The notes under the pieces were generated by a model that was not told the origin of the DNA, ran no database searches, and saw nothing but the letters and a program-made list of their open reading frames with translations. 45,392 nucleotides of DNA. It comes from Planctomycetaceae bacterium. Lineage in GTDB: Bacteria > Planctomycetota > SZUA-567. Shown here piece after piece: positions 32,687-37,786 of the stretch (position 1 is the first letter of the stretch; the number at the start of each line of letters is the position of its first letter). The DNA lies in NCBI GenBank assembly GCA_021203245.1, contig JAJQBO010000095.1:1-45392 (forward strand), read 5' to 3'. The position numbers and the translations under genes are program-made.

Positions 32687-33019
32687 ATGGCAAGAAACAG
32701 CAGCTCGACGGACGCCACCAAGCCCGAACCGACCCCTGCAGCTCAAAGCAGCAAGCCGACGGGCACCATTATGTACGTCGGGCCGAGTTTGGTCGAGGAC
32801 GGAACGCCTTTTTCGCACGGACACATCTTTAATAACGGCTTGCCGGCGGCATGGGAGGCGAAGGCGCTCATCGAGCCGGAATTTCGTCATCTCCTGGTGC
32901 CGGTCGCCAAAGTCGGCAAGGCCATCGCTGAGCTCAAGGACCCGCAATCGCGCCTTTCCTCTGTGAGCCGCGCGGTTCTGGAGGCAAGCCGCAAGCGAAT
33001 CAAGGAGGGCGCGAAGTGA
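32687..33019 (+). CDS. Hypothetical tail-region protein
   Basis: 110 residues, AGGAG ribosome site. The N-terminus is Ser/Thr-rich and disordered, then GTIMYVGPSLVEDGTPFSHGHIFNNGLP, a short beta-rich segment, and a basic helix at the end. The same slot in P2-like prophages holds a small DUF2635-like protein; this cannot be proven. The stop overlaps the sheath start (GTGA). Confidence 0.5.
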   Translation: MARNSSSTDATKPEPTPAAQSSKPTGTIMYVGPSLVEDGTPFSHGHIFNNGLPAAWEAKALIEPEFRHLLVPVAKVGKAIAELKDPQSRLSSVSRAVLEASRKRIKEGAK

Positions 33020-34493
33020 CTGCAACCTACCATCACGGCGTGACCGTCAACCAGGTCCCGACCAGCCTACTCTCACCTCGGAAAAGTATGTCGGCCCTGC
33101 CGGTGATTCTCGGCTGCGCGCCCATCCATCGCCTTGCGGCCGTGGATGAGGCGCGCGTGCGTCCTGGCCGGATTGAAATCGTTCATGACCTAAAGGAAGC
33201 CGGGACGGTTTTTGGCATCGACACCGCCATCGACGGCTTCGAGCACTGGACGCTTTCGGAAGCCGCCTATACCTATTTCCAATTGATGAACGTCTCACCG
33301 ATGATTTTCATCAATCTGTTCAATCCGGAGGTGCATCGCCGGATGGTTTCAGCCGAATCGGTAAAATTCGTGCGGGTAAGGGCGCGCTCGCCCACGCCGA
33401 CATCATCGGCGGCGCCGTCCTCAAGCCGACCGACGGCGGCGACCCGTACCAGGCGGGCGTTGACTACCACTTGAACGCCGTCACCGGCGAAATTACCGTG
33501 CTGGACGACGGCGCGCTGACCTCGGTGACGGAAGTCACCGCCAGCTACGCCTATGCGGCTCCGGACATGGTCACCTTGATCGATTGTATGGGCGGCTACA
33601 ACACCGTTTCCGGCCTCACCACGGGAATTTCCCTCATCGACGACGTTTTTCCGAAATATCGGGAAGTGCCGGCCATCGCTCTTGCGCCGAAATTCGGTGA
33701 GGACCCCGCCGTCGCCTTGGTATTAACCGCGAAAATCAAGTCGATTAACGGCGCGTTTCGTGCTGGGGTGGCAGTCGTCGATCTGCCTGCCGATAACGCG
33801 TCCGTGATTCCACGCTACAGCGACGCACCGTCGTACAAACAGCATAACGGCCTCACATCCGAGGACATGATCGTATGCTGGCCAAAGGCTGTCGTCGGCG
33901 ACAGGGTGGTGCGGTTGTCCACGCTCGCGGCCGCGCGAATGGCTGCCACTGACGCGGAAAATCGGGGATTCCCGTTCGTTTCGCCGTCCAATAAATCTCT
34001 TCCCATCACCGGCTGTGTCGCCAACGGTGAAGAGGTGCGGCTTGACCACCAAAAGATCACCTTCCTGGACAAAAACGGCATCGTCACGGTCACCAACTTC
34101 ACCAACGGCTGGAAGCTGTGGGGCAATCATACCGCTTGCTACCCAGACAACATGGACCCGAAGGATTACTTCATTCCGGCACGGCGCATGATGGCCTGGT
34201 ATGGGAACTATCTCATCACCACATGTTGGGAAAAAGTCGACTATCCGCTGACCCGGCGACTGGTCCAGACCATGGTGAATTCCGAGCAGTACCACCTTAA
34301 TTCGCTGACGTCCGGCGAGATTATTCATGGTGGCCGGATCGAACTTCTGGAATCGGAAAACAACATCGTGGACATGATGGGCGGCTCGGTGCGCTTCCAT
34401 TGCTGGCTCGGGATCATCCCGCCAGCACAGCATATCGACTTCGTTCTGGAATATGATCCGACCTACCTGGCAACCCTGTTTAATGCAGTCTGA
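33016..34493 (+). pseudogene. Contractile tail sheath protein, one-base frame break
   Basis: Two frames join into one sheath of about 492 residues. The first part (VTATYHHGVTVNQVPTSLL to NPEVHRRMVSAESVK) and the second (IRAGKGALAHADIIGGAVL to YLATLFNAV) are separated by a single missing base in the A4 run at 33363-33366. Sheath hallmarks: the N-terminal TSLLSPRKSMSALPVILGCAP and the C-terminal INPPA-like GWIIPPAQHIDFVLEYD part. Total length 1478 is one short of a multiple of three. Loss would abolish contraction, so an error in the sequence or a decayed prophage must be considered. Start GTG 33016 with AAGGAGGG. Confidence 0.88.
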
Positions 34494-34520: not shown

Positions 34521-35027
34521 ATGAACATTCCGGAAGCGGTCGCCCAATATAAGCTCTACAACGAAGCGCAAACAATGATCGGTATCACCACCATCGACTT
34601 TCCCTCCCTGACTTCCTTGGCGGCGGAAATCAGCGGTGCGGGTATCGGCGGCAAAATCACGAAGGCCATTGTCGGCATGTTCGACTCCATGTCCGTTACC
34701 TTCAATATCCGCGCCGTCACCCCTGACCAATTCCGGCTTCTCCATCCCGGCACTCACCACCTGGAAGCGTGGGCGGCCGTGCAGGTGAGCGAAAACGGGC
34801 GGTATGCGGTCAGGCAGCATAAGGTCATCATCGAGGGCGAGTTCAAAACCCTCACCACCGGCAAACATGCCGCCGGGGAGACGCAGGACCGCAGTCTCGA
34901 GATGGAGGTGTTGTATTACAAGGAACAATACGACGGCTACGACTATATCGAAATCGATAAGCTCAACATGATGTTTGTCGTCGAAGGCCGCGATATACTG
35001 GCCGAAGTCCGCGCCGCCATTGGCTAA
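34521..35027 (+). CDS. Tail tube protein, P2 FII-like
   Basis: 168 residues. NIPEAVAQYKLYNEAQTMIG..., DFPSLTSLAAEISGAGIGG and AVQVSENGRYAVRQHKVIIEGEFKTL match the tail tube proteins that form the inner cylinder in P2-like phages. Strong ribosome site AAAGGAGA. Confidence 0.88.
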   Translation: MNIPEAVAQYKLYNEAQTMIGITTIDFPSLTSLAAEISGAGIGGKITKAIVGMFDSMSVTFNIRAVTPDQFRLLHPGTHHLEAWAAVQVSENGRYAVRQHKVIIEGEFKTLTTGKHAAGETQDRSLEMEVLYYKEQYDGYDYIEIDKLNMMFVVEGRDILAEVRAAIG

Positions 35028-35041
35028 CGAAAGGAAGTGAA

Positions 35042-35440
35042 GTGGAAAGACCCCCTTACGAAATTACTGGAACGAATTTTGTTTCGGAAGACGTTCAAGA
35101 CTCGGCATCACCCGTTGTCGAAGTTTCCCCGGCGCAGCCGGAGGAGAGTCTCGGCTACGTGGTCCATGAGCTGAACAAACCCATCACTGTCGATGGCAAG
35201 GAGATCCGGAAAATTGTCCTGGACTTCGACAGCATGTCAGGCGACGCGATGCAAAACATCGAGTCGGAGATGCGCGCCGACGGCAATATGGTTGCTGTAC
35301 TGAACCCGGTTTCATCGGCCACATACTGCCAGTATATCGCCGCGCGAGCGGCGAAAATGAACGTCGCCGACATTCGCCGGCTGAGCTTCAAGGACAACGC
35401 GATTATCGTGATGCGTGTTCAAAATTTTATCACGAACTAA
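35042..35440 (+). CDS. Tail assembly chaperone E (short form)
   Basis: 132 residues. GTG start 35042 with AAGGAAG upstream. KPITVDGKEIRKIVLDFDSMSGDAMQNIESEMR and MNVADIRRLSFKDNAIIVMRVQNFI resemble P2 gpE (tail assembly protein). It is the in-frame product when no frameshift occurs. Confidence 0.78.
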   Translation: MERPPYEITGTNFVSEDVQDSASPVVEVSPAQPEESLGYVVHELNKPITVDGKEIRKIVLDFDSMSGDAMQNIESEMRADGNMVAVLNPVSSATYCQYIAARAAKMNVADIRRLSFKDNAIIVMRVQNFITN

Positions 35441-35586
35441 CGGTTGAGGACGTGGTTAGCCATGCACTAAGGCTGGCACGGTTCTCAAATGGTGGCTTCG
35501 ACTATTTCATGCGTTTGCCGCTATGGCGGTTACGGCGGGTGAGCAGGGCGGCCGGACGTATCGGTCGGGAAGAATCGGAAAAGTAG
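35042..35586 (+). CDS. Tail assembly chaperone E+E' (frameshift form)
   Basis: A -1 shift at the heptamer A AAT TTT (35422-35428) joins gpE to the frame that reads YHELTVEDVVSHALRLARFSNGGFDYFMRLPLWRLRR... and ends with TAG at 35584-35586. The product is 181 residues. In P2 and lambda (G/GT) such a minor fusion is essential for tail assembly, with the extension in the same place between tube and tape measure genes. No SD-like stimulator was judged. Confidence 0.75.
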
Positions 35587-35590
35587 GACG

Positions 35591-37786
35591 ATGGCAAAAA
35601 CACTCGAACTCATATTTTCCATGACCGGCAAACTTGCGCCCGACTTCGTGAAGTCGGCCAGGACTGCCACGTCCGAGTTGAAGGCTGTCGAAAAGGGGAC
35701 AAAGGATATCAAAAAAGCGGCGGAACGCCGCGCTTCGGCGAATTCCTTGAAGGCGTGGACACAGTCCGTCAGCGGTGTGAAAAAGTCTCTTGGCGGGCTG
35801 AAGGGCGAGCTGCTTGGCCTTGGGAAAATCGCCGCCGGCCTTTTTGCCGGTAACGGCCTCATTGGTGGTGCCATCTACGGCGTTGCCAAATCCTCCGCCG
35901 GCTATGCCGACCAATCGCATAAGACGGCCCAAGGCGTCGGCATGACGACCCAGGCGTATACTGAGCTGGCCTACGCGGCCGACATGGCAGGGGTCAACCA
36001 GCAGTTGTTCGCAATGTCCATGGGTAAGACGAACAAGGTTATTGCCGACGCCCTGGGCGGCAACCAGAAGGCGAAGGACATTTTCACCCGCACCGGCATT
36101 TCCATTCGCGATGCCAACGGCGAAATCAAAACGGCCGAAGCTATGCTGGGCGACCTAGCAGAAGCATTTGCGGCTATGCCCGACGGGGTCGGTAAGACAA
36201 AGCTGGCTATGGACCTGTTCGGAGAGGCTGGCACCAAGTTAATTCCGTTCCTGAATGCCGGGAAAAAAGGTATCGACGCACAACGTGAAGCTGCACGGAA
36301 ATTGGGCGTAACACTCACCGAGCAGGATGGCATTAACGCTGAAGGGTTCAACGACTCCTTTGCCAATATCGGCAAGTCGCTTCGCGGCGCGACACTCATT
36401 GTCGGCAAGTCGATGTGGGCTCCATTGACGAAGGTGCATGAATTCATCAGCGACAAAATCCTTACCGCAGCGCAGGACCTTGCCCAGGTCATGCCGGAAT
36501 GGGTGACCGCCTTCGAGGAGGGATGGGAAGATCTGAAGCCGGAACTGGACGCCGCGTGGGTATCCATAAAGGACGGGGCGAAGTACGTCAACGACATCGC
36601 GCAGAGTATGGGCGGATGGGTTCCGGTCATCAAATCGGTGGTTAAATATTGGCTCTATTGGCGTGGCATCCGTATCGGAAAATCCCTATGGGATGTCGGC
36701 AAGGCGGTTCGCGGACTCGGACAAAACTTCCTCGGCCTGCAGTACGCCGGCGTGTCGGTACAAGGCGCAATGGTCGGCCTGGGCGGCAAGCTCAAGGGGG
36801 TGTTCGTTGGTGCGCTTTCGGGTGTCTCTAAGGCCCTGTCGGTCGGCTCGGCGGCGGCCCTGAAGTTCGGCGCGGCGCTCCTCGCAAATCCCATCGGCCT
36901 CGCCATCGCCGGCATCGCCGCCCTCGGCGGCACCGTTTACCTGTGCATAAAGCATTGGGATGACATCACCGCGGCGGTCGGTAAGGCATGGACGTGGATC
37001 AAGGGTGTTTTCGCATCAGGCTGGAAGATGCTCCCTGAATGGGTCCAGACACCGCTGGCTTCGGCCTATGATGCTGTTGCGGGCTTTGGTGGCAGCGTGG
37101 TGTCGGCGTTTTCCATGGCGTGGGACTCAGTGACCGGCCGCTTCTCCTCGGTGATTGATTCCTTCGACGGCGGGTTATTGAAGGGCCTGACGGACCTGAT
37201 CGTTAGATTCAGTCCGGCCGCGTTGTTCATCGATGGCCTGAACGCACTGTCCATGATGATTTTCGACTTCGACCTCAAATCCGCCGGCATGGAACTGGCC
37301 CGCAAGCTCGGCGACGGCATTCTTTCAGCATGGACCGGTATCAAGGACAGTCTCAAATCGGCAATCGTCGATTGGATTCCCGGCGGCTCCACCATCATGT
37401 CCGGCATCGGCGGTGCAGCCGACGGCGTGGCCAGTGCGGCCGGTTGGGTCTCGGATAACGTGTCGTCTATCCTGCCTTTTGCCGATGGCGGCATCGTGAC
37501 GCGGCCGCAGTTGGCACTGGTCGGTGAGGCCGGTCCCGAGGTCATCGTCCCGATGTCCCGCCCGCAGCGCGCGCGGGATCTCCTCGGCGCGGCCGCCAGC
37601 ATAGTCGGCGACGGGAGAGGACCCGGCGGCGTCGCTCTTTCTTTCAGCCCGACCATTACCATCGCCGGTTCTGCCGACGCTTCCGTGCTTGCCCAGCTTG
37701 AGGAACGGTTGCGCCGCCTGAAGGACGAAATGTTCCAGGAGTTGGACAATCGGGTCCGCACCAGCCGCCGAACGGCATTATGGTGA
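35591..37786 (+). CDS. Tail tape measure protein
   Basis: 731 residues. N-terminal coiled coil with Lys/Ala helices, YTELAYAADMAGVNQQLFAMSMGK, GTKLIPFLNAGKKG and hydrophobic segments near residues 425-455 (LKFGAALLANPIGLAIAGIAALG) and 475-640. The C-terminal EDGGIVTRPQLALVGEAGPEVIVPMS-like segment is a family hallmark. It sets tail length and passes through the tube. Six hydrophobic segments and many Gly/Ala fit the usual design. Confidence 0.9.
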   Translation: MAKTLELIFSMTGKLAPDFVKSARTATSELKAVEKGTKDIKKAAERRASANSLKAWTQSVSGVKKSLGGLKGELLGLGKIAAGLFAGNGLIGGAIYGVAKSSAGYADQSHKTAQGVGMTTQAYTELAYAADMAGVNQQLFAMSMGKTNKVIADALGGNQKAKDIFTRTGISIRDANGEIKTAEAMLGDLAEAFAAMPDGVGKTKLAMDLFGEAGTKLIPFLNAGKKGIDAQREAARKLGVTLTEQDGINAEGFNDSFANIGKSLRGATLIVGKSMWAPLTKVHEFISDKILTAAQDLAQVMPEWVTAFEEGWEDLKPELDAAWVSIKDGAKYVNDIAQSMGGWVPVIKSVVKYWLYWRGIRIGKSLWDVGKAVRGLGQNFLGLQYAGVSVQGAMVGLGGKLKGVFVGALSGVSKALSVGSAAALKFGAALLANPIGLAIAGIAALGGTVYLCIKHWDDITAAVGKAWTWIKGVFASGWKMLPEWVQTPLASAYDAVAGFGGSVVSAFSMAWDSVTGRFSSVIDSFDGGLLKGLTDLIVRFSPAALFIDGLNALSMMIFDFDLKSAGMELARKLGDGILSAWTGIKDSLKSAIVDWIPGGSTIMSGIGGAADGVASAAGWVSDNVSSILPFADGGIVTRPQLALVGEAGPEVIVPMSRPQRARDLLGAAASIVGDGRGPGGVALSFSPTITIAGSADASVLAQLEERLRRLKDEMFQELDNRVRTSRRTALW

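Follow-up and report, generated by a model that had tools for sequence, protein, structure and literature searches.

Comparative evidence for a programmed −1 frameshift in the tail assembly chaperone gene of a contractile-tailed phage from Planctomycetota

The window, the whole 45,392-nucleotide stretch of Planctomycetaceae bacterium DNA analysed here, carries a contractile-tail assembly chaperone gene, E, which is very probably decoded with a programmed −1 ribosomal frameshift (probability about 0.93, judged from sequence). The case for −1 frameshifting is carried by comparative evidence, which we grade as strong: the phase of the slippery heptamer, the open −1 frame, the slip site and E′ extension conserved in relatives, and the signature of coding selection in the −1 frame are all legible in the sequences. 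The E/E′ logic, as in lambda G/GT, is already textbook, and the mechanism is an ordinary one, of which the window provides only a further member.

Most ribosomes would end at the TAA of E, releasing the 132-residue protein. A minority, with AAT and TTT occupied by Asn-tRNA and Phe-tRNA, would slip back by one base (AAT to AAA, TTT to TTT), pass the TAA and append 52 residues, giving an E+E′ product of 181 amino acids. Slippage probably takes place at a rate of a few per cent; rates of 6–7% have been measured in two other phage chaperone genes (PMC3711429). By analogy with lambda G/GT (PMC5009743), E would bind or coat the tape measure protein, and E+E′, the rarer form, may recruit the tube protein through its E′ part.

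Gene E and its neighbourhood

The product of E matches the tail assembly chaperone family phrog_3140 in a family profile search (E = 5.2e-21), and this match, together with the flanking tube and tape measure genes (Table 1), bears out its initial annotation as tail chaperone gpE. The gene order of the window, sheath (phrog_23), tube, E/E′ and tape measure, is the same as in P2. The P2 E family, PF10109, recognizes the E protein of the window at E = 5e-4 and 20.4 bits, below the cut-off of 25, which is passed by the E proteins of the relatives L003, L004 and L006. Alignments with phage homologues of E extend to residue 129, the slip site. Searches of the E/E′ region for a sigma-70 promoter or an internal terminator returned nothing above chance.

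Relatives of E were recovered by a search with a six-sequence alignment (A2); scans of viral and genome contigs with the E protein alone, and DNA-level searches of phages and plasmids, gave no match. The nearest relative (L043/L002), whose E is 65% identical, is a Planctomycetaceae bacterium contig of the same genus as the genome of the window, and the phage host is therefore probably a Planctomycete. Beyond this same-genus locus, a profile search of 392 Planctomycetota genomes found no relative of E, and a clade-specific scan with A3 yielded no further Planctomycete relatives. The window would extend tail-chaperone frameshifting to a phage lineage in Planctomycetota.

The tail sheath gene of the window (33016–34493) is split, with its N-terminal part in an ORF at 33016–33474 and its C-terminal part in another frame, in an ORF at 33471–34493 that is listed from a TTG although its frame stays open 5′ of that codon; the break in frame lies at about 33350–33365. 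The sheath gene of L043 (365–1852) is one intact ORF of 495 amino acids. Either the break in the window is a genuine mutation or it arose in assembly; the phage is then possibly defective, or else the contig may contain indel errors.

Table 1 Features of the E/E′ region and its flanking genes in the window
Feature	Position	Strand	Basis or remark
Tail tube gene, directly 5′ of E	34521–35027	+	PF04985 Phage_tube, E = 9e-34
Gene E, tail assembly chaperone	35042–35440	+	GTG start, 132 aa
Slippery heptamer A AAT TTT, in phase	35422–35428	+	CAA AAT TTT in L043; position homologous to T TTT TTG/TTA of distant relatives
E′ extension, −1 frame	35428–35586	+	52 codons plus TAG; match to profile of relatives’ E′; substitution pattern 7/4/15
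Possible stimulatory hairpin	35437–35496	+	Folding z score and two-sequence consensus
TAA stop of E, zero frame	35438–35440	+	
Tail tape measure gene, directly 3′ of E/E′	35591–37786	+	phrog_8462, E = 3e-46

Slip site and −1 frame

The codons at the 3′ end of E are CAA AAT TTT ATC ACG AAC TAA, and the heptamer AAATTTT at 35422–35428 therefore has the X XXY YYZ phase that the initial annotation had assigned to it. The heptamer had been placed 12 bases before the stop of E, which holds if the three bases of the stop codon are counted in; nine bases (three sense codons) separate it from the stop codon itself. Slippage by −1 opens the frame YHELTVEDVVSHALRLARFSNGGFDYFMRLPLWRLRRVSRAAGRIGREESEK, whose 52 codons are closed by a TAG at 35584–35586; the four bases GACG lie between this TAG and the ATG of the tape measure gene (35591), so that the length and spacing first proposed for the extension agree with the coordinates.

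A count over 3,686 codons in 16 neighbouring genes gave five in-phase heptamers (0.14%), and A AAT TTT in E is the only one near the end of a gene. The chance that Gln-Asn-Phe would be coded as CAA-AAT-TTT is 0.04 in this window of 56% GC. The open length of E′ was rejected as evidence by itself, 52 open codons being met about 12% of the time by chance.

Conservation of the E′ extension

The slip region of L043 reads CAA AAT TTT ATG ACG AGC TGA. Its E′ consists of YDELTVENILYVALKLARFSNGSLE, a 10-N assembly gap and PLWQLRRMAKVARKIDREEARE, followed by TAG (YDELTVENIL...LARFSNG...PLWQLRR), and the tape measure ATG stands two bases after that TAG. Between the E stop and the gap, substitutions that separate the window from L043 number 7 at first, 4 at second and 15 at third positions of −1-frame codons (Fisher p = 6e-4); when the whole of E′ 3′ of the E stop is counted, p = 0.002. 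Over E′ as a whole, dN is about 0.34 and dS about 2.2. The 10-N scaffold gap, at about 2925–2934, falls within the E′ of the only close relative.

A wider family survey covered 52 relative loci, 33 of them distinct. In all 33 distinct relatives the −1 frame runs 113–194 nt past the E stop (median 158), whereas the +1 frame stays open for a median of 31 nt. The E/E′ overlap of 30 of the 33 contains an in-phase X XXY YYZ heptamer, mostly T TTT TTG or T TTT TTA; off-phase heptamers, counted over two phases, occur in six, and all of these are TTTTTTT. The E′ sequences of 20 relatives, not including those of the window and L043, were made into a profile and searched against the 881 stop-to-stop frames of at least 30 codons in the window; the profile picked only the frame that holds E′ (E = 4.4e-5; next best, 0.69). 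The E′ of L043 has a poor score in this profile. A joined E+E′ product is annotated in the records of Vibrio phage X29 and P2.

Retention of the slip site and the E′ frame in relatives had been put forward as a comparative check, and both are kept across the survey and in L043. Homologues that would speak against frameshifting, namely those with E′ absent or fused in frame to E, were not seen in the 52 relative loci. A sequencing or assembly indel that broke up a single long gene, or reading frames that overlap by chance, might be suspected from the broken sheath gene nearby in the same assembly. Indel errors nevertheless fail to explain E/E′ because the relatives show the same layout: two frames recur in the related contig and in the 33 distinct relatives, almost all of which have a slip site, and none was seen with E and E′ fused in frame. 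The relatives in essence refute this explanation, the probability of which is close to nil.

It is also very improbable that E′ is a separate small gene with its own start, such as the GTG at 35452, coupled to the end of E. That GTG lies eight codons into E′, and several annotators have predicted short stand-alone genes at the E′ position, for example in L003 and L004, but the conserved YHELTVE/YDELTVE residues begin 5′ of it, the first 25 codons of E′ in L043 contain no ATG, GTG or TTG, and start codons in the E′ of other relatives are variable in position or absent. The in-phase heptamers at the overlap in 30 distinct relatives likewise argue for entry into E′ by frameshifting. Annotations of the window and its relatives should give E+E′ as a joined product; in many of the relatives E′ is currently unannotated or appears as a hypothetical gene.

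The E′ of the window has no Pfam match, including to PF06528 (the P2 E′ family), and no direct match to phrog_3140 or phrog_30074. The E′ of 20 relatives has no PF06528 match either, and P2 E′ itself scores 78.7 bits.

Two groups of relatives differ at the slip position. Five loci (L035, L036, L037, L039 and L041) have E and a conserved −1-frame E′ (SPKSLWQLAGRG...VDYWIGLPV) and lack an X XXY YYZ heptamer in the overlap; a non-canonical slip or some other mechanism may serve them instead. In the Paenibacillus Pd_22F-like group (L006, L021, L026, L027, L044–L046, L048 and L049), GTT TTT AT(C/T) TTG GGG replaces the usual slip site, and the frame could change at either TTT or (T/C) TTG GGG.

Relation to known chaperone systems

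The region resembles that of P2 in the order of sheath (FI), tube (FII), E/E′ and tape measure (T) and in a slip near the end of E; the same logic at the same gene position had been claimed for P2 E/E+E′ and for lambda G/GT, and this comparison stands. After the slip, E′ is 57 amino acids long in P2 and 52 in the window, and the heptamer is T TTT TTG in P2 as against A AAT TTT here. Between the two E′ sequences there is a weak, motif-level resemblance (hhalign probability 7%).

Closer counterparts are Vibrio phage X29, Lily and KLER1-1 (phrog_3140), each with a homologous E, a −1-frame E′, the tube gene before and the tape measure gene after. The E proteins of Lily and KLER1-1 align with that of the window right up to the slip site. 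All three slip at T TTT TTG, one codon downstream of the site in the window, where Lily and X29 have AAT TTT TTG and the window has AAT TTT ATC.

The lambda G/GT heptamer is G GGA AAG. Both this heptamer and the tail type of lambda differ from those of the window, and the likeness to lambda is one of logic. That logic comprises a short chaperone and a rarer, frameshifted long form, encoded just 5′ of the tape measure gene (PMC5009743).

Register of the slip and possible origin of the heptamer

Many relatives carry (G/A)AAT TTT TTG, encoding Asn-Phe-Leu, and their slip is assigned to T TTT TTG. The third codon is ATC in the window and ATG in L043, and A AAT TTT is the only in-phase heptamer there; with TTG replaced by ATC or ATG, T TTT TTG is gone and the slip register lies one codon upstream. 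Both heptamers overlap as A AAT TTT TTG/TTA in five loci (L010, L016, L040, L042 and L057), which offer a plausible route between the two slip states. There is perhaps an even chance that the register moved one codon upstream in the Planctomycete lineage, with overlapping intermediates keeping function throughout. The region would then be a small, testable case of a recoding signal possibly drifting between heptamers through such intermediates.

All 64 heptamers have been assayed in E. coli by Sharma et al. in 2014 (PMC4066793). The H_HH.U_UU.Y motifs, A_AA.U_UU.U among them, were in the most efficient group, and U_UU.U_UU.G is not in the bacterial list of that study (PMC4066793). If the register did move, the E. 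coli motif data suggest that the new site is perhaps more slippery, which would entail a changed ratio of E to E+E′ or compensation elsewhere. The initial annotation called the heptamer an interesting variant; it does differ from that of P2, but its novelty was overstressed, because the motif class had already been measured as efficient (PMC4066793) and the site overlaps the T TTT TTG of most relatives with an offset of one codon.

A different kind of slip, by a single P-site Phe-tRNA on T TTT or by transcriptional slippage on the AAAATTTT run, is improbable. A single-tRNA slip at TTT would produce the same peptide junction as the tandem slip, and the Pd_22F-like group keeps TTT AT(C/T) at the slip position without A AAT TTT. 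The A4 and T4 runs of the window would be too short for polymerase slippage, and L043 retains the A that opens the heptamer. Sharma et al. report hardly any shifting on tetramers that lack a stimulator and the highest efficiency on heptamers that allow cognate re-pairing in the A site (PMC4066793), which argues for tandem slippage on A AAT TTT.

A possible downstream stimulatory hairpin

A hairpin that may aid frameshifting is predicted a few bases 3′ of the slip site in both the window (z = −2.25) and L043 (z = −2.76), and the consensus of these two sequences includes three two-sided changes. The E/E′ region has no above-chance match in Rfam. A family-wide stimulatory hairpin is unsupported, with a median z of −0.22 in the relatives and 0.05 in controls (p = 0.08). 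Very stable hairpins just 3′ of the slip site were found in Vibrio phage X29 (L051, 1756–1825; z = −5.65) and in L016 (z = −6.98), and these two are candidates for strong stimulators.
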